Assembly (NCBI GenBank): GCA_913778085.1 | Contig: CAJYXJ010000042.1 | Location: 1-64,000, forward strand | DNA length: 64,000 nt | Direction: 5' to 3' | Source of the DNA: an uncultured Chryseobacterium sp. | Lineage (GTDB): Bacteria > Bacteroidota > Bacteroidia > Flavobacteriales > Weeksellaceae | Part shown: positions 22,766-29,465 of the stretch, one piece after another | Layout: each line of letters starts with the position of its first letter | Numbering within the stretch: the stretch's first letter is position 1 | Notes under the pieces: model-generated | Seen by the model: only the letters and a program-made list of their open reading frames with translations | Database searches by the model: none | What the model was told of the DNA's origin: nothing | Program-made: the position numbers and the translations under genes

Positions 22766-22804
22766 AAAACCCCTATCCGTAATACGGATGGGGGTTTTTA
22801 TTTT
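22766..22804 (+). terminator. Rho-independent terminator after rplQ
   Basis: AAACCCCTATCCGT pairs with ACGGATGGGGGTTT around a three-base loop (stem about 22768-22798) and is followed by TTTATTTT. A strong end for the 14-kb ribosomal cluster. Confidence 0.85.
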
Positions 22805-22849
22805 ACACAAAAGGGTAATTGATTGAAATACATCACACGCATAATTTAG
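22803..22849 (+). promoter_or_regulatory. regulatory box A plus -7 element
   Basis: The 20-mer TTACACAAAAGGGTAATTGA (22803-22822) contains the dyad TTAC-N8-GTAA. Exactly 19 nt later is TAATTTAG (22842-22849), close to the Bacteroidetes -7 motif. The box covers the -33 position. The same box with the same spacing occurs at 24143 and 27499. It probably drives the DUF2272 gene at 22880. Confidence 0.65.
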
Positions 22850-22879
22850 CTGAAACAAAAATAGTTAAATCTCAAAATT

Positions 22880-23458
22880 ATGGCAACAACCCTTTTTGCA
22901 AAAAAGCTCGCAGAAACGGCCCAACAGCAGTACCTTCTTTATAAAAGGATGGATGAAGGTGATGAACAACTTTGCCGGCAGATCAGGAAGTATTACCGGG
23001 ATCTCGGATTTCCTTTTGCCAGCTGCGTGGCTGTACCCTGGTCTGCAGTTTTTATCTCCTGGTGCGTCCTGAAGGCAGGGGCGACTTCTGCGGAATTCAG
23101 ATTTTCTGCTTCCCATTCACGGTTTGTATATGCTGCGATTGAAAACGCTGCTGCCGATACAGGAGTATTCAGAGCGAGACAGCTTACTGATTATGCTCCG
23201 AAGATAGGCGATATCATCCAGAACAACAGAGGCGGTTCAGTATTTGATTATGAATATGCCCGTGTACACAAAGATTATCCTTCTCATTCGGCCATTGTAG
23301 TGGAAGTTGGAGAGGATAGCAGCGGTAAATATTTACTGACTATTGGAGGTAATGAAAGTGATTCTGTTCGGATGAAAGAAATCCGGCTGGATCGTAACGG
23401 GCGGATAAAAAACAGAACGGTCAACCCCTTTATTCTGATTATAGAAACATTAAAATAA
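22880..23458 (+). CDS. DUF2272 (NlpC/P60-like) protein
   Basis: A 192-residue protein resembling DUF2272 (PF10030), a family with a papain-like/CHAP-like fold that may act on peptidoglycan or peptides. Seen: VPWSAVFISWCVLKAG with the candidate nucleophile region, SHSRFV, KIGDIIQNNRGG, and HSAIVVEVGEDSSGKYLLTIGGNES, which supplies the conserved histidine and the glycine-asparagine end of the motif. There is no clear signal peptide, so the location is uncertain. It stands alone behind box A, and convergent with the lipoprotein gene 23592-24026 across a shared terminator. Confidence 0.75.
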   Translation: MATTLFAKKLAETAQQQYLLYKRMDEGDEQLCRQIRKYYRDLGFPFASCVAVPWSAVFISWCVLKAGATSAEFRFSASHSRFVYAAIENAAADTGVFRARQLTDYAPKIGDIIQNNRGGSVFDYEYARVHKDYPSHSAIVVEVGEDSSGKYLLTIGGNESDSVRMKEIRLDRNGRIKNRTVNPFILIIETLK

Positions 23459-23554
23459 CAGGAATTCTGATAAGAATCTGGTGTCTGTTTTACTTCTTCA
23501 GATATGATAACCTGATTTCTGATTCGGCCCGATGATCATTAGTTCAAAAAAATA

Positions 23555-23587
23555 AAATTCCGTTTGAAATAGTTTCAAACGGAATTT
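23555..23587. terminator. bidirectional terminator
   Basis: AAATTCCGTTTGAAA (23555-23569) pairs perfectly with TTTCAAACGGAATTT (23573-23587), loop TAG, T-run on both strands. It serves the convergent genes at 22880-23458 and 23592-24026. Confidence 0.85.
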
Positions 23588-23591
23588 TTTA

Positions 23592-24026
23592 TTAAATTTT
23601 TGTCTTTTTAAGTTCAATGATATTATTACCCTGGATAAGATGGATACTGTCCTGCGTTACTCTTGCTGTCATATCATCCTTGGTATAGGTTGTTTCTTTA
23701 CCGCTCGTCCCTGTTTTTTTCAGGATAAACGTTTTGTTATTATTTCTTATCGAAAGCGTACTTTCTTTCGGAGTGGTTTCAAAGATTACCTTTACCAGGG
23801 TGCCGTCCGTTGCTTTGTAAATATTGCTGGTCGTTTCCGTTTTCTGGCCGTTCACTTCCGTCATCGAAGATGATGTGCTTGCAGAATCTATTTTACCGTT
23901 GTTATCCACCACCGAAGTCTCCGAACTTTCCGATTGGATGATCTCTTTATTGCCCCCTTCACTTTTTTTACAGCTTACCATAGAGAGAAAAGCCGCTGAA
24001 ACTGCGACGAGAATTACCTTTTTCAT
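23592..24026 (-). CDS. MliC-like lipoprotein (putative lysozyme inhibitor)
   Basis: A 144-residue lipoprotein with lipobox LSMVSC (cysteine 19). A Ser/Thr/Glu-rich spacer spans residues 20-65. The C-terminal domain, YKATDGTLVKVIFETTP, ESTLSIRNNNKTFILKKT, ARVTQDSIHLIQGNNIIEL, follows the strand order of MliC, the membrane-bound inhibitor of C-type lysozyme. The paired cysteines of classical MliC are missing, as in many Bacteroidetes copies, so the target is uncertain. It is transcribed away from box B. Confidence 0.6.
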   Translation of the reverse strand: MKKVILVAVSAAFLSMVSCKKSEGGNKEIIQSESSETSVVDNNGKIDSASTSSSMTEVNGQKTETTSNIYKATDGTLVKVIFETTPKESTLSIRNNNKTFILKKTGTSGKETTYTKDDMTARVTQDSIHLIQGNNIIELKKTKI

Positions 24027-24142
24027 GACTTTAATTTTTTAATGTATTGATTGTTAAATGTTTTTGTAGTGTAGAATAATTTTTCTTAAATTTAATCAAA
24101 ACAAAAACTAAACCAACCATTATGAAGACAATCTTTCTAAAA

Positions 24143-24189
24143 TTACACAAACGGGTAATTGACCCGCTTCATTAAGATTCTGAACTTTA
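24143..24189 (+). promoter_or_regulatory. regulatory box B plus -7 element
   Basis: TTACACAAACGGGTAATTGA (24143-24162) is the best copy of the 20-bp box, with flanks extending the dyad to AATTAC...GTAATT. GAACTTTA at 24182-24189 follows after 19 nt. It precedes the 62-residue peptide gene at 24250 and possibly, by read-through, the response-regulator operon. Confidence 0.65.
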
Positions 24190-24249
24190 CAGTAATAAAT
24201 CAGGGACGCTGAAAACTGCACAGAGTAGGCTTATTTAAACCTTATTGCT

Positions 24250-24438
24250 ATGTTAACAGAATCAGACATCAAAAATGTATCATTGGAAAAAAGCCCGGAT
24301 AGCGTTAATTTTTGCGCCGTATGGCCTGCTGCGAAAAAAGGACTGGAACTTCTGAAGGAAATTATCAAAAATCCCGTACTGAAAGGAGTGATCGGAACAG
24401 TTATCAGCCTGGGAGACGGATTTTGCCCTTCAAAATAA
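24250..24438 (+). CDS. 62-residue peptide of unknown function
   Basis: Begins MLTESDIKNVSLEKSPDS, then FCAVWPAAKKGLELLKEI, an amphipathic stretch IIKNPVLKGVIGTVISLGDG and a final FCPSK. It has two cysteines, no signal peptide and no double-glycine leader, and the central helix could insert in or lie on a membrane. A box-driven small gene 89 bp upstream of a two-component operon could encode a signal, effector or anti-regulator; none of these can be decided from sequence. Real-gene support comes from its own box B promoter and coding-like composition. Confidence 0.55.
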   Translation: MLTESDIKNVSLEKSPDSVNFCAVWPAAKKGLELLKEIIKNPVLKGVIGTVISLGDGFCPSK

Positions 24439-24527
24439 TGAACAGCAAGGGCTTTCTTTATGACGGAGAAAACCCATTATGAAGAAACCGGAATTCCGAA
24501 TTAGGATATTCACCCAAACCATATGAG

Positions 24528-25160
24528 ATGAAGATAAGAATAGCCATCGTAGAAGATGAGAAAAACTACAACAATGCCTTGAAGAAAGTGATCGATTACC
24601 AGGATGACATGCGAGTGGTTGCCCAGTTTTTTGACGGACGCGAGGCTTTGCAACAGCTCGCCGATCTTTCTCCGGATGTGGTCATGATGGATATCCAGCT
24701 TCAGGATATGCTCGGCATTGAAATCATTGAAAAACTGAAACAGCAGATGCCATCCACTCAGTTTATCATGTGTACGAGTTTTGAAGATGAAGAAAAGATT
24801 TTCAATTCCTTGAAAGCCGGAGCCATGGGCTATCTGGTAAAAGGCGAAAGTATGGATAAGATTCTCTCCTCCATCCGCGATGCCTACAACGGCGGCGCCC
24901 CGATGAGCTTCTCCATCGCGAGGAAAGTCCTTCGCCATTTTGAACGTAAACTTCCCGAAATCCAAGGCTTCAACGAACTCACGGAACGGGAAAAGGAAAT
25001 CCTGGAACTGCTCTCCCAAGGATTATTATACAAAGAAATTGCCGACAAGAAATTCATCAGCATTGATACGGTGAAAAAGCATGTCGGAAATATTTACCGA
25101 AAGCTCCACGTCAACAATAAAGTTGAAGCTATTAATAAATTTAACCATTTTAAAAACTAA
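24528..25160 (+). CDS. NarL/LuxR-family response regulator
   Basis: A 210-residue regulator. The receiver domain has acidic pocket E9-D10, phospho-acceptor D55 in VVMMDIQLQD, T83/S84 and K105 in GYLVKGES, all intact. The GerE/LuxR helix-turn-helix at the C-terminus has LTEREKEILELLSQGLLYKEI and SIDTVKKHVGNIYRKLHV. Its partner is the HisKA_3 kinase at 26655, separated by two AT-rich genes. NarL-type proteins bind inverted heptamers, which fits the TTAC-N8-GTAA dyad of boxes A to C, so I infer it is their regulator. No box lies directly before this gene. Confidence 0.92.
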   Translation: MKIRIAIVEDEKNYNNALKKVIDYQDDMRVVAQFFDGREALQQLADLSPDVVMMDIQLQDMLGIEIIEKLKQQMPSTQFIMCTSFEDEEKIFNSLKAGAMGYLVKGESMDKILSSIRDAYNGGAPMSFSIARKVLRHFERKLPEIQGFNELTEREKEILELLSQGLLYKEIADKKFISIDTVKKHVGNIYRKLHVNNKVEAINKFNHFKN

Positions 25161-25166
25161 GAAATT

Positions 25167-26042
25167 ATGAAAAAAATTAAATTATTCTTACTAATTATTA
25201 TATCAATGTTAGCAATTAATTCTTGTAAAGAAAAAATAAAATTATCAAATAATAGTGAATGTAAGAAGCTTGAGGATGGATATTTGCTAATAAAACAAGG
25301 CAAAAAGAAATCTGCCGAATTTAAAGAGTTTTTGGAATATATAAAAAAAATTGGAATTTTTGAAATTAATATTGAGGATCCAATAAGTGATTCCAGAAAT
25401 AGAATCGGTCAGTCTAGATACACGACATTTTCTAATAATCTAGTTAAAAATATGGAGTTAGACTACAAAGTATTTAAAAAGTTATTAGATGACTATTCTA
25501 AAAATAATGATTTTAATCTTCTAAGGATTCAATATATTTATCTGTCAGAAACTATATTACAAGAATTGCTACAAGATATTCCGTCTAATGATAGAGAAAT
25601 AGTAATTAAGAATTTAGAAAAGAATCAAAATAATTTGTATGCTATATTAACATTTGTAAATAAAATTGATTTGGATAAAAATAATAAATCATATTTAGTT
25701 TTTAATTTAGGATCAAAATATTACGAAATTAAAATTCAAGAAAAAGATTTGTACAGTCAATTTAAAACTAATATAAGTTCACTAATAAATAATCCAACAT
25801 ACATTGCAAAATCTGTTTGTTACAATAAAGAAAAAGTTTTAGATTATATTGCTGAAATCGATAAATATGTAGATACTTGTAGATTACCAGCAATAACAAT
25901 ACTTAAATTTAATTATTGTTATGGTAGAAGTAAATATAATGAAGATAAAGAATCAATTTTCTTAACTTCAATACCTTTGGATTCCACGGGTAATGAATTA
26001 CGGAATTTTCCTTATTATGATCAAGGTAGTTTGGAACCATAA
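25167..26042 (+). CDS. AT-rich lipoprotein in two-component operon
   Basis: A 291-residue lipoprotein with signal peptide and lipobox AINSC (cysteine 20), mature part periplasmic. It is Lys/Asn/Ile rich and mostly helical (residues 55-170), with LLRIQYIYLSETILQELLQD, then a strand-rich part. No family recognised. It starts 6 nt after the response-regulator stop and its stop overlaps the start of the membrane gene at 26042, so all are one operon. Base composition is much more AT-rich than the flanking regulator and kinase core, suggesting separate acquisition. It may be the ligand-sensing partner of the kinase. Confidence 0.6.
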   Translation: MKKIKLFLLIIISMLAINSCKEKIKLSNNSECKKLEDGYLLIKQGKKKSAEFKEFLEYIKKIGIFEINIEDPISDSRNRIGQSRYTTFSNNLVKNMELDYKVFKKLLDDYSKNNDFNLLRIQYIYLSETILQELLQDIPSNDREIVIKNLEKNQNNLYAILTFVNKIDLDKNNKSYLVFNLGSKYYEIKIQEKDLYSQFKTNISSLINNPTYIAKSVCYNKEKVLDYIAEIDKYVDTCRLPAITILKFNYCYGRSKYNEDKESIFLTSIPLDSTGNELRNFPYYDQGSLEP

Positions 26043-26674
26043 TGTTAATTAAAATTTACTATATTGTTTTTTTTATTACAGTTTTAAGATCATCAATTAT
26101 TTTGAGAAAAAATCGTTTTTTTTCTCAAAATAATTTATTTGTTTTTTTACTGATAAACTTTTGTGTTGATTTTTCGTCAGAGATTGATCTTATTGAATTA
26201 AAAGCAATTCAATATAATTATTTAAATATTTTCAACATAACGTTTTTCATTTTCTTCTACTATACACAAATAAGGAATAAATTATTAGTAGTTTTAATTT
26301 CTGTGAGTACTGTTATTTGTCTATATTTTACAAGCCATTACTTCTATTTAGATAAATATAATTTAAGTCTTGGGATTTTATATTGTCTTGCAAATATATC
26401 TTATTCGCTTTATTGGATTAAAGATAAATTGAATAATGTAACTGATGTTAAGATAATAGATGAGCCATTTTTCTGGATCTCTATTTCATTACTTTTCTGG
26501 AGCTGTTTTTTTATGTTCAGAATAATTCCCATGTATCTATTAGATGAAGAAGATAAACATTTTTTAAAGCTGCTAAAAGATATACTTTTATTAGTAAATA
26601 CATTTATTTACATATTATTTTATATAGGAATTTCAAAATATAAATACATAAAAGATGAAATCTCTACCCCCTGA
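26042..26674 (+). CDS. polytopic membrane protein, putative sensor subunit
   Basis: A 210-residue, very hydrophobic protein with about six predicted membrane helices and a short basic C-terminus (GISKYKYIKDEISTP). It overlaps the lipoprotein gene by 1 bp and the kinase gene by 20 bp, the tightest coupling in the island. Kinases of this class often carry such multi-helix sensor domains in the same chain. Here the kinase has only one membrane helix, so this protein may supply the sensing membrane part in trans. That role is an inference. AT-rich like its upstream neighbour. Confidence 0.55.
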   Translation: MLIKIYYIVFFITVLRSSIILRKNRFFSQNNLFVFLLINFCVDFSSEIDLIELKAIQYNYLNIFNITFFIFFYYTQIRNKLLVVLISVSTVICLYFTSHYFYLDKYNLSLGILYCLANISYSLYWIKDKLNNVTDVKIIDEPFFWISISLLFWSCFFMFRIIPMYLLDEEDKHFLKLLKDILLLVNTFIYILFYIGISKYKYIKDEISTP

Positions 26675-27440
26675 AATCAAGTTAACATATATTGTAGCGA
26701 TTTTACTAATAATGCTGCTTATTAGTTTTGTAGTTTTCATTATAATAACATATAATAAAAAACAACTTCTTTTTTTTCAGCAACAACAACTCAAAGAATC
26801 CGAACACCAAAACCAGCTCCTCCAGAAAGAACTCGAAAAACAGAAACTGATCGAAAAAGAACGGGAACGGATTTCTCACGATATGCACGATGATCTCGGA
26901 GCCGGGATCTCAGCCCTAAAACTTCAGGCGGAATTTTTAAAACAGCGTGCTGAAGACGAAGATCTCAAAAGCGACATCGATGAACTCCTGAAAACCTCCG
27001 AAGACATGAATCTCTCCATGCGGGAAATGCTCTGGAGCTTAAATTCCGGGAATGATACCCTCGGAAGCTTTATCGACTACGCTAAATCCTATGCACAAAA
27101 CTTCCTCAAAAAAACAACAATTGTCCTTCACATCGAAAACGAAAGTGTAATTGCTCAGACAACCATCACCACCGAACAGCGGCGCAACCTCTTCCTCTGC
27201 CTGAAGGAAGCCCTTAACAATGCCTACAAGCACAGCCGGTCCAGCAGGCTGATCCTTTCTTTTACCCAGCATGAGAAGGAGTTCATGATGAAAATCTCCG
27301 ATAACGGCATCGGCATCGACACTGTAAAACAGGAAGGGAACGGTCTTCGAAATATGAAACGCCGGATGAAGGAACAGAACGGGCATTGTGAAGTTACCAC
27401 AGAAGACGGAACACACTTGTTTTTCAGAATAGAACTGTAG
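26655..27440 (+). CDS. HisKA_3 sensor histidine kinase
   Basis: A 261-residue kinase. One membrane helix (about residues 10-32), a Gln/Glu/Lys-rich coiled coil (40-70), then the HisKA_3 box ERISHDMHDDLGAGISALKL with phospho-acceptor His78 by alignment to the DLHD motif. The ATPase domain has KEALNNAYKHS (N box), ISDNGIGI (G1) and NGLRNMKRRM (G2), all intact. No periplasmic sensor domain. Base composition changes abruptly inside the gene: up to about 26790 it is AT-rich like the upstream genes, after that it resembles the response regulator. Confidence 0.9.
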   Translation: MKSLPPEIKLTYIVAILLIMLLISFVVFIIITYNKKQLLFFQQQQLKESEHQNQLLQKELEKQKLIEKERERISHDMHDDLGAGISALKLQAEFLKQRAEDEDLKSDIDELLKTSEDMNLSMREMLWSLNSGNDTLGSFIDYAKSYAQNFLKKTTIVLHIENESVIAQTTITTEQRRNLFLCLKEALNNAYKHSRSSRLILSFTQHEKEFMMKISDNGIGIDTVKQEGNGLRNMKRRMKEQNGHCEVTTEDGTHLFFRIEL

Positions 27441-27461
27441 AAAAATTTATAGGTAATTAGA

Positions 27462-27490
27462 AACAGCATCATTTATGGTGCTGTTTTTTT
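27462..27490 (+). terminator. terminator after kinase gene
   Basis: AACAGCATC (27462-27470) pairs with GGTGCTGTT (27477-27485, small mismatch near the loop), followed by a run of T. It separates the two-component operon from box C, which begins 9 nt later. Confidence 0.75.
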
Positions 27491-27498
27491 GTTGTAAA

Positions 27499-27545
27499 TC
27501 ACCCGTTTGTGTAATTGACAGGGATTTGTTTTTGTGGGAACTTTG
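27499..27545 (+). promoter_or_regulatory. regulatory box C plus -7 element
   Basis: TCACCCGTTTGTGTAATTGA (27499-27518) is the 20-bp box with its asymmetric core inverted: the core reads as the reverse complement of box B, while the outer GTAATTGA stays in the same place. GAACTTTG (27538-27545) follows after 19 nt. It precedes the three-gene pYEATS unit. Confidence 0.65.
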
Positions 27546-27571: not shown

Positions 27572-27781
27572 ATGAAAAAAACAGTTATTCACTATTCCCT
27601 AAGCTGGAATTTAGATAGCAATCAGGGTCAGATTATCTTACAATACAGAGATGGAAATGAAAATGTGGAAAAAAAGATTACGGAATTAGATGCTCTTGTA
27701 TTTAATGCATTGGGTACCATCCTGACCAATGGAAAGGCTTTGTTTAATACGGCAGATAATACAATTTTAAACATAGCATAG
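27572..27781 (+). CDS. 69-residue protein, unknown
   Basis: Begins MKKTVIHYSLSWNLDSNQGQ, continues QIILQYRDGNENVEKKI and ends in DNTILNIA; predicted small alpha/beta protein, no signal peptide. The frame opens earlier at 27515, but ATG 27572 is chosen because the box C promoter would place the transcript start near 27550, downstream of the earlier codons. Five bases lie between it and the lipoprotein gene. First gene of the pYEATS unit. No family recognised. Confidence 0.55.
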   Translation: MKKTVIHYSLSWNLDSNQGQIILQYRDGNENVEKKITELDALVFNALGTILTNGKALFNTADNTILNIA

Positions 27782-27786
27782 GCAAA

Positions 27787-28380
27787 ATGAAACAATTATT
27801 ATACACATTAGGAATCATTACCGTATTTAATTCATGCGTGCCTCAACATACTATGACATTCAAGGAACTGAAAAGTATGAATTCTAATTATCAAATGTCG
27901 TATGATGCGATGAGGCGGGGGTCAATGATAAGCATTAATGAAAAAGGGAGAATCGATAAAGTATTATCTGAAGTTCAGCCTGATGCGGCAATTGCCACCA
28001 CAAGAGAAGTAACGACCAGATTAATGGCTAAATTAAAGTCAGGGGATAGTGTATCTGGGGAGAATATCACAAAGATTACCGAAACGTTATCAAAGCTTGG
28101 TGAAAGGACAGCTCCGGTGAATATGCTCAGGGATGCACTGTATAGAATGGAAGAGCACTGTGTTAACTTTCCGGATCATTGTCCTAAAGAATTATACTGG
28201 AAAAGTTTTGACAGTGTCGTGACTTCGGTAACCCGCCTGCAACAACAGATCTCAGAAACAGCACGGAATGAAGCTGAAAAAGCAAAGCAGGAAAAGGCAA
28301 CGGTAGATAAACTTAGCGACCTTACTCAAAATGAAAAAAAAGATTTTAATGAATTATTAAAACTTTTGGATAACAAGTAA
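27787..28380 (+). CDS. helical lipoprotein of the pYEATS unit
   Basis: A 197-residue lipoprotein: signal peptide MKQLLYTLGIITVFNSC with cysteine 17. The mature part is helical, with a Cys/His-containing stretch EEHCVNFPDHCPKELYW and a C-terminal coiled coil (LQQQISETARNEAEKAKQEK). Probably anchored on the periplasmic side and long enough to interact with the YLATT membrane protein encoded 11 nt downstream. Family not recognised. Confidence 0.6.
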   Translation: MKQLLYTLGIITVFNSCVPQHTMTFKELKSMNSNYQMSYDAMRRGSMISINEKGRIDKVLSEVQPDAAIATTREVTTRLMAKLKSGDSVSGENITKITETLSKLGERTAPVNMLRDALYRMEEHCVNFPDHCPKELYWKSFDSVVTSVTRLQQQISETARNEAEKAKQEKATVDKLSDLTQNEKKDFNELLKLLDNK

Positions 28381-28391
28381 AACGAACAAAT

Positions 28392-29465
28392 ATGCAAGTA
28401 TCTTATATTTTGTTAATAATGCTCTCAACGGGAATTTTAGGAGGCACTGTCAATTTTTTTTCTGATTCCAATAAAGATGTAGAGAATCAGACCAAAAAAG
28501 TTCGGAACTGGATGGTGTGCATCTTTCTCGGTATTGCGGCAACGATTATTATACCTTTGTTTTTAAAACTGGCAGATAGTCAATTGGTGGTAAATATTGA
28601 AAATGATATTTTTATTAATCATAAAAACGATTCTAAAAAACAATCAAAAGATAAAGTTTATCAAATGCCTACAGATGAGTACAAATCAAATGCTCAGACA
28701 AGTATAAATTCTGATATATTTGGAAATCCTAATCAAAATTTTCACAAGTCAGACAATAAATCTGTCGCATCAGATTATCTTTTATGGGCAGCCTATTGTT
28801 TGTTAGCCGCGGCGGCTGGAATGAGATTTATTGATTTGCTGGTAAATAAACTGCTTACGCAATCCCAGGTCATAGAACTGCAAAAGCGTGTAGAAAAGAA
28901 AAAGGAGGAAAATAAAGAACTGGCAAAAGAAAAAGAAACCCTGGAAGGAGAAGTGGAAAAAATTGCAAAGACTGAAGAAAAAAGAATAAAAAATTATGAA
29001 GTAAGCGAGCAGAATTTTATTCAGCAATTAAATAGTATTCCTTCAAATATTCAGGAAGCCGGTCTAAAGACGTCTTTTAATGAGGAAAAATTACCGGATC
29101 TGCCACCTGTCAAATTTAAGGATGACCCGCAAAAAGGAAGATTTGGAGGGCAAAGCAATTTTAATGGAAGAACACTTAGCGTCAGCTATAAAAAATATTT
29201 TCTACCGGGCTTTTTAAAACTTACAATTAAGGTGAGTGCAGATCATGAAAATAACCTTTTAAAAGGAAACGTATATCTTTTTTTACATGATTCATTTGCC
29301 GATTCTGTCGTAATGTATGCTGCTGACGGAAAAAAAGAGATTGTACATGAAGTAATCTCCTATGGAGCATTTACGATTGGAGCAGTGACAGATGCAGGAA
29401 ATACAATGTTGGAACTTGATATTGCAGAACAAAAAGATTTTCCTGAAGACTTCAGAAAGAGATAA
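28392..29465 (+). CDS. YLATT-pYEATS membrane protein
   Basis: A 357-residue protein. Three membrane helices (about residues 1-20, 40-62 and 130-150) match the YLATT pattern, the three-helix domain named for its association with YEATS-like domains. A Lys/Glu coiled coil (about 160-215) follows. The C-terminal domain resembles the prokaryotic YEATS family: FGGQSNFNGRTLSVSYK, then LKGNVYLFLHDSFADSVV, SYGAFTIGAVTDAG and TMLELDIAEQ. Families are recalled, not searched. Such proteins are predicted parts of NTP-regulated conflict or stress systems, where the YEATS-like domain would bind a modified ligand. Last gene of the box C unit. Confidence 0.7.
   Translation: MQVSYILLIMLSTGILGGTVNFFSDSNKDVENQTKKVRNWMVCIFLGIAATIIIPLFLKLADSQLVVNIENDIFINHKNDSKKQSKDKVYQMPTDEYKSNAQTSINSDIFGNPNQNFHKSDNKSVASDYLLWAAYCLLAAAAGMRFIDLLVNKLLTQSQVIELQKRVEKKKEENKELAKEKETLEGEVEKIAKTEEKRIKNYEVSEQNFIQQLNSIPSNIQEAGLKTSFNEEKLPDLPPVKFKDDPQKGRFGGQSNFNGRTLSVSYKKYFLPGFLKLTIKVSADHENNLLKGNVYLFLHDSFADSVVMYAADGKKEIVHEVISYGAFTIGAVTDAGNTMLELDIAEQKDFPEDFRKR

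Follow-up and report, generated by a model that had tools for sequence, protein, structure and literature searches.

A dyad box at the promoters of a two-component operon and its changing cargo in Chryseobacterium and its relatives

We analyzed a stretch of 64,000 nucleotides (nt) from contig CAJYXJ010000042.1 of an uncultured Chryseobacterium sp. whose genome is 4.63 Mb (this whole stretch is "the window"). Three promoters in and around an operon for a NarL-type response regulator and a histidine kinase share a dyad box, and in all three the box lies exactly 19 nt from an eight-base -7-like element. It is probable, in our judgement, that the three boxes are the operators of one small regulon, in which the NarL-type regulator would activate both the operon that encodes it and the exchangeable cargo genes beside that operon. 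As far as sequence can tell, the finding is larger than one local regulon: the regulator and the box appear to form a conserved module whose cargo changes.

Three promoters with one box

The box is a dyad, TTACMC-N4-GKGTAA, joined to a TTG at -33. The promoters in the window are:

22803..22849, + strand: promoter 1, upstream of a DUF2272 gene; dyad TTACACAAAAGGGTAA, -33-like TTG at 22819-22821, -7 element TAATTTAG at 22842-22849
24143..24189, + strand: promoter 2, upstream of an open reading frame (ORF) of 62 amino acids (aa) and the regulator operon; dyad TTACACAAACGGGTAA, TTG at 24159-24161, -7 element GAACTTTA at 24182-24189
27499..27545, + strand: promoter 3, upstream of the downstream cargo; dyad TCACCCGTTTGTGTAA, TTG at 27515-27517, -7 element GAACTTTG at 27538-27545

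A sequence-only reading of the window had placed the boxes at 22803, 24143, and 27499 (the third with one outer mismatch) and the -7-like elements at 22842, 24182, and 27538, exactly 19 nt past each box. All of these are as it described. It was also right that the core of the third copy is inverted: the box is a dyad, and the TTGA on its promoter (gene) side is the only part with a fixed orientation. The most plausible role for this extra TTGA is that of the -33 element in a Bacteroidota promoter. Behind the boxes are the DUF2272 gene, the 62-aa ORF, and a third unit, which had been labelled pYEATS and includes a YLATT protein whose pYEATS match is below the cut-off.

We combined the dyad, the TTG, and the -7 element into a composite promoter pattern, which promoters 2 and 3 match perfectly and promoter 1 matches with one mismatch. 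At up to three mismatches, this pattern has seven matches in the host genome, namely the window sites (0, 0, and 1 mismatches) and four sites with three mismatches; the control had six. For the full box, WTTACACAAACGGGTRATTKA, at up to three mismatches there were four matches in the whole genome, which are the three window sites (0-1 mismatches) and one site with three mismatches, and the control had none. The full box is thus confined to the three window sites, bar that single three-mismatch site. There are no strong copies scattered across the host genome, and within this genome the regulon is "local", as had been proposed; relatives have further, unlinked targets (see below). The consensus that had been suggested as a search motif, TTAC-N8-GTAATTGA, is not specific. 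With two mismatches it has 11 matches within the window versus 9.45 expected, and with one mismatch it has 24 matches genome-wide (including the three window sites) versus 12 for the control. The eight free positions make it too loose, and the specificity resides in the core ACAAAnGG, in either orientation.

Box, operon, and cargo in relatives

We compared 149 genomes from the genus, using the gene for the membrane protein (at 26042) as the marker for the operon, which is present in 122 of them. The composite promoter (at most 1 mismatch) was found in 122/122 operon-positive genomes and in 0/26 genomes without the operon, plus G060, whose locus (L231) has a decayed regulator remnant with three stops behind a promoter that can still be recognised, as if caught in the course of losing the module. 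The reversed control pattern had 3 matches across the 149 genomes. (Fisher p for the co-occurrence is 1.6e-29, ignoring kinship.) On a tree of 126 loci, the presence of the operon changes at least 15 times, so evolution has put the link between box and operon to the test several times. This tree was built with FastTree from eno, rpoA, and rplQ, which adjoin the hotspot where the operon lies and may lend the tree the hotspot's own history; for operon presence, L231 carried no label. Across the order (296 genomes), 33 genomes have the operon, 35 have the promoter, and 32 have both, that is, the promoter is in 32/33 operon-positive genomes versus 3/263 of the others, which are G060, G393, and G489. 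Because the box and the operon share their presence and absence nearly perfectly in both sets of genomes, the NarL-type regulator at 24528, which had been named as the natural candidate, is the strongest candidate for the protein that binds the box.

From the 122 operon-positive genomes we analyzed 107 loci, one per genome and including the window. The composite promoter (at most 1 mismatch) is upstream of the response regulator in 106 of these, and the spacing is conserved too. We scanned offsets 8-33 past the box for the strict pattern [GT]ANNTTT[AG], and the -7 element was at one and the same offset in 105/106 regulator promoters and 84/87 cargo promoters; strict matches at the other offsets numbered three in total. 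(The 106 regulator sites exclude L082, where a CHAP gene with its own box sits between the box and the regulator; for L050, we assigned the register manually.) For promoters that are unlinked to the operon, we tested 14 of 15 sites (L065 was left out), with the reading direction picked by eye; 7/14 have the element at the same offset by the strict pattern and 11/14 by a looser one.

We also fetched loci from 20 of the 27 operon-free genomes. In these, the lipoprotein gene that is a fixed neighbour of the operon is close to eno, and the operon and the full cargo of this hub are absent. Remnants are a 53-residue match to cargo cluster K4 in L214 (K numbers are from our clustering of cargo) and the decayed regulator with boxes in L231. 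In L230 a GH35-like gene sits between the lipoprotein gene and eno, and K12 or K14 is on the rplQ side in five loci; L222 ends at a contig end.

In the 107 loci, the box follows the cargo. We considered a locus to be cargo-bearing if the gap between the kinase and enolase was at least 604 nt (90/107 loci) and cargo-free if it was at most 344 nt (17/107). The composite promoter (at most 2 mismatches) lies in this gap in 85/90 cargo-bearing and 0/17 cargo-free loci, where the best match had 4 mismatches. Cargo presence changes at least 16 times on the tree of these loci. Cargo type changes at least 72 times, with 34 types plus "none"; we defined a type by listing the forward ORFs of at least 60 aa, and any ORF that was missed or broken adds to this count. 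Upstream of the operon, the promoter (at most 2 mismatches) precedes 3/3 DUF2272 genes, 7/14 Amidase_2 genes, and 1/1 CHAP genes, but 0/27 of the genes that we take to be GH35-like, 0/3 testable K14 genes, 0/6 K12 genes, and 0/60 testable empty intervals; another K14 gene and another empty interval lacked sequence to test. The box is also absent upstream of the single genes of clusters K42, K45, K46, and K50. The box therefore tracks the class of gene and not the place.

The cargo includes peptidoglycan hydrolases, trypsin-like and DyP-like proteins, YLATT and other membrane proteins, and K1, a family of outer-membrane barrels by structure prediction that sits behind small proteins. By a crude hydropathy test, the Amidase_2, DUF2272, CHAP, trypsin-like, and DyP cargo have no N-terminal hydrophobic stretch, and K3, K4, and K11 have hydrophobic N-termini. 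YLATT proteins occur in K9 and K17 cargo, and a trypsin-like protein occurs in K13-K9 cargo. In both K9 proteins that we scanned, pYEATS was below the cut-off, and most of the scanned cargo clusters have neither a YLATT nor a pYEATS domain. PADLOC, run on 10 proteins, gave weak partial matches only. The small proteins K6, K10, K20, K28, and K48 precede the barrel-like K1 (in L045, L055, L141, L138, and similar loci), and the small proteins K7 and K8 precede K3 and K4, respectively. The representatives of the small proteins that we scanned (all but K28 and K48) match no Pfam family.

The regulator and the box have been retained together in other genera and in another family, at other chromosomal sites. 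Regulators that are 56-68% identical to that of the window are found in seven further genera of the family. We fetched 18 of the 19 corresponding loci (G231 was left out), and the promoter (at most 2 mismatches) lies before the regulator in 11/18 and after the kinase in 10/18; L237 and L249 are cut by contig ends. None of these 18 stretches has a match to rplQ, rpoA, eno, or gltA. In another family, the promoter (1 mismatch) is 64-65 nt upstream of the regulator in 4/4 loci with the regulator in view, and relatives of K11 or K24 adjoin in 3/5 loci.

Within the genus, unlinked promoters precede genes for subtilase, patatin (in two genomes), thermolysin-like, matrixin-like, PhoD-like, and other proteins; one is upstream of an L,D-transpeptidase at a distance of 463 nt. 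Relatives of the hub cargo (K1, K4, K19, or K23) stand behind the unlinked promoter in 9/34 fetched loci. These 34 loci were picked by the pattern, so that they carry it is no evidence in itself. In five genomes (L259-L263) an unlinked box precedes one kind of protein of 417-428 aa, and the one that we scanned has no convincing Pfam match. Locus L072 has two boxes 1.1 kb apart with near-identical flanks, before a protein with sub-threshold matches to fascin and ricin-lectin and a second gene.

Proposed mechanism and alternatives

In the mechanism that we propose, the NarL-type regulator (24528) would bind as a dimer to the dyad TTACMC-N4-GKGTAA. The promoter-side arm of the dyad runs into the TTG at -33, and the dimer would recruit RNA polymerase from there. 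Input would come by a phosphorelay from the histidine kinase (26655), probably via the membrane protein (26042) and the fast-evolving product of gene 2, which may sense the signal. The output would be positive autoregulation of the operon together with activation of the adjacent exchangeable cargo and, in some relatives, of unlinked genes. Gene 2 and the cargo vary beside a regulator and a box that stay the same, which suggests that a gene that lands behind a box gets wired to the same signal.

The anatomy of the promoters bears on the sign of the regulation. In class II activation, the dyad is centred near -41.5 and overlaps the upstream core element, and a centre near -43.5 would be close to a typical activator position. 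A study of Flavobacterium psychrophilum (PMC9723704) puts TAnnTTTG at -12 to -5, and the sigma-A consensus it gives has T at -12. If the -7 element here spans the same positions, then our dyad is centred at -43.5 and the TTG is at -35 to -33. At -12 there is G in 106/106 regulator promoters and in 94% of the 85 post-kinase cargo promoters; the A, the TTT, and mostly the final G are kept. With G at -12, these hub promoters do not match the Bacteroidota sigma-A -7 element TAnnTTTG, which suggests that the hub core promoters are weak and need help. Promoter 1 of the window (TAATTTAG) does have T at -12, but it differs from the same element at -6.

Several observations weigh against our proposal. 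The G at -12 is limited to the hub promoters, since the base there is T in promoter 1 of the window and T, A, or C in the majority of unlinked promoters. An activator, which the sequence-only reading had expected, is therefore plausible, but the case for it is moderate. A repressor at -33 would show fixed spacing just as well, as -33 and -7 are themselves fixed. The co-occurrence of box and operon is in part inherited kinship, and G038, G063, and G075 were counted as operon-positive on partial matches to the regulator. In the order, G222 has the operon without the promoter, and G393 and G489 have single promoter matches without the operon. In other genera, L248-L251 (whose regulators are 56-60% identical) have no match at up to three mismatches, L246 and L247 lack the promoter before the regulator, and we saw no clear change in the recognition helix alongside divergent boxes. 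The composite promoter after the kinase has more than 2 mismatches in 5/90 cargo loci (L110, L120, L140, L157, and L173), and half of the Amidase_2 genes have no box. Among the 34 unlinked loci, the composite is missing at up to 2 mismatches from L064 and L067, and no gene lies within 2.3 kb in L278.

It is unlikely, we think, that the boxes are operators for repression, with the response regulator or another protein covering -33 and induction by derepression. As the dyad and the TTG (-35 to -33) overlap, fixed spacing alone cannot separate a repressor from an activator, and promoter 1 and most unlinked promoters, without G at -12, would suit a repressor. However, a dyad centred near -43.5 would be close to a typical activator position, and the G at -12 of the hub promoters, set against TAnnTTTG, suggests weak promoters that need help. 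An even less probable explanation is that a different, unlinked regulator binds the boxes and the two-component operon is merely another target. A first look with the regulator profile gives many candidates in the genus genomes, and one unlinked box (L068) precedes a PAS-LuxR pair. However, the box co-occurs with this operon (122/122 versus 0/26), and the pair is retained at other chromosomal sites in other genera and another family. We give hardly any credence to the idea that the boxes are mobile or recombination repeats at cassette junctions and no operators at all. They do lie on both sides of the operon, with their cores in opposite orientation, and next to a set of genes that changes, but they keep a single rigid offset to the -7 element, they occur in none of the 17 cargo-free loci, their unlinked copies stand before genes, and they show no repeat-like spread in the host genome.

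What the cargo is for is a separate question. The rapid turnover of the cargo and the absence of N-terminal hydrophobic stretches hint at conflict or antagonism, and our guess, which may well be wrong, is that the cargo is a lytic or antagonistic arsenal. Envelope repair is as likely a use: the hydrolases, barrels, and proteases could be an envelope-stress or self-remodelling set that is made upon envelope damage. The predicted outer-membrane barrel (the K1 model) and the hydrophobic N-termini of K3, K4, and K11 are consistent with such a set; at least 72 changes of cargo would fit conflict better than housekeeping, and so would Amidase_2, DUF2272, CHAP, trypsin-like, and DyP proteins that lack a hydrophobic stretch at the N-terminus. 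Returning to activation by the NarL-type regulator, we tentatively suggest, at somewhat less than even odds, that the module is a plug-in socket that spans several genera and two families. In it, the regulator and the box would be near-frozen, whereas gene 2, on the input side, and the cargo of effectors would diversify quickly. New antagonistic effectors would be recruited by landing behind a box or by evolving one, both at a fixed hotspot that has enolase on one side and the ribosomal-protein/RNA-polymerase operon on the other and at unlinked satellites.

Genes of the locus and related systems

The order of genes in the window is rplQ, the DUF2272 gene, a lipoprotein-like gene (reverse), the 62-aa ORF, the response regulator, gene 2, the membrane protein, the HisKA_3 kinase, a 69-aa protein, a lipoprotein-like protein, the YLATT protein, eno, and gltA. 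(The identities of rplQ, rpoA, eno, and gltA are presumed from their sequences.) Genome G123 has two enolase-like genes, the second of which is 52% identical to the enolase of the window.

22880..23458, + strand: DUF2272 protein (192 aa), the upstream cargo; DUF2272 89.7 bits, CHAP 19.1 bits (below the cut-off of 26); no N-terminal hydrophobic stretch
23592..24026, - strand: lipoprotein-like gene (144 aa), a fixed neighbour that is kept also in operon-free genomes
24250..24438, + strand: 62-aa ORF between promoter 2 and the regulator, in a small subgroup of loci
24528..25160, + strand: NarL-type response regulator, the candidate box-binding activator; Response_reg 87.0 bits, GerE 63.0 bits
25167..26042, + strand: gene 2, hypervariable with a conserved C-terminal tail YDxGxLxP; a putative signal-input subunit
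26042..26674, + strand: third protein of the operon, without a Pfam family; we call it "membrane protein" because its sequence is hydrophobic
26655..27440, + strand: histidine kinase; HisKA_3 48.1 bits and HATPase_c 34.5 bits, both above cut-off
27572..27781, + strand: 69-aa cargo protein, cluster K8, which is in 12 of the 107 loci, each time with K4 next
27787..28380, + strand: lipoprotein-like cargo, assigned to cluster K4 by the clustering of cargo
28392..29465, + strand: YLATT membrane protein, cluster K9; YLATT 73.0 bits (cut-off 26.7), pYEATS 24.2 bits (below the cut-off of 26.9)

The genes of the operon differ in how fast they change. Mean column identity is 87% for the regulator and 42% for the membrane protein (25 loci each) and 18% for gene 2 (50 rows), whose structural model has a predicted local distance difference test (pLDDT) score of 82.3. 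In the regulator, E9, D10, D55, T83, and K105 are invariant in 25 rows; we take these to be the phospho-acceptor Asp and the accompanying acidic, Thr, and Lys residues. The tails of gene 2 are mostly YDxGxLxP or LCPPxC, and cargo K21 and K25 share such ends, which looks like a duplication of gene 2 into the cargo. The last residues of the 62-aa ORF, GDGFCPSK, slightly resemble these tails. The leader from the box to the regulator is about 350-370 nt in 6/107 loci; an ORF similar to the 62-aa ORF is readable in the window, L060, L148, and L153, and its end is changed in L149. (The members of cluster K16 are from the window, L149, and L168.)

Known systems for comparison are class II-type activation by NarL/FixJ regulators and the polysaccharide-utilisation loci of Bacteroidota, which have their own regulators. 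Like the NarL/FixJ class II systems, this one has a regulator with receiver and GerE domains, a HisKA_3 kinase, and a dyad operator that adjoins the core promoter and stands before the system's own operon; unlike them, it has a Bacteroidota-type core promoter and a constant regulator that is combined with a hypervariable gene 2 and exchangeable adjacent cargo. The polysaccharide-utilisation loci also have a regulator beside the variable operon that it supposedly controls. However, none of the ten window proteins that we scanned has a hybrid two-component or SusC/SusD domain, and here one well-conserved regulator is found beside many cargoes at the same chromosomal site. YLATT/pYEATS membrane proteins have a role in conflict systems (PF20303 and PF20305), and a YLATT protein is present in the window's cargo and, more widely, in K9 and K17 cargo. 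Unlike those systems, pYEATS falls below the cut-off here, and what we studied is control by a two-component system and its box.

For a two-component system that most of the sampled genomes of the genus have (122/149), these results provide a precise operator that can be tested and name a candidate regulator. The box is a low-background handle in the DNA for finding cargo, such as peptidoglycan hydrolases, protease-like proteins, patatins, YLATT proteins, and proteins without a convincing Pfam family. With a switch that stays constant and cargo that changes, this design would let one ask directly how bacteria wire newly acquired genes into an existing circuit.

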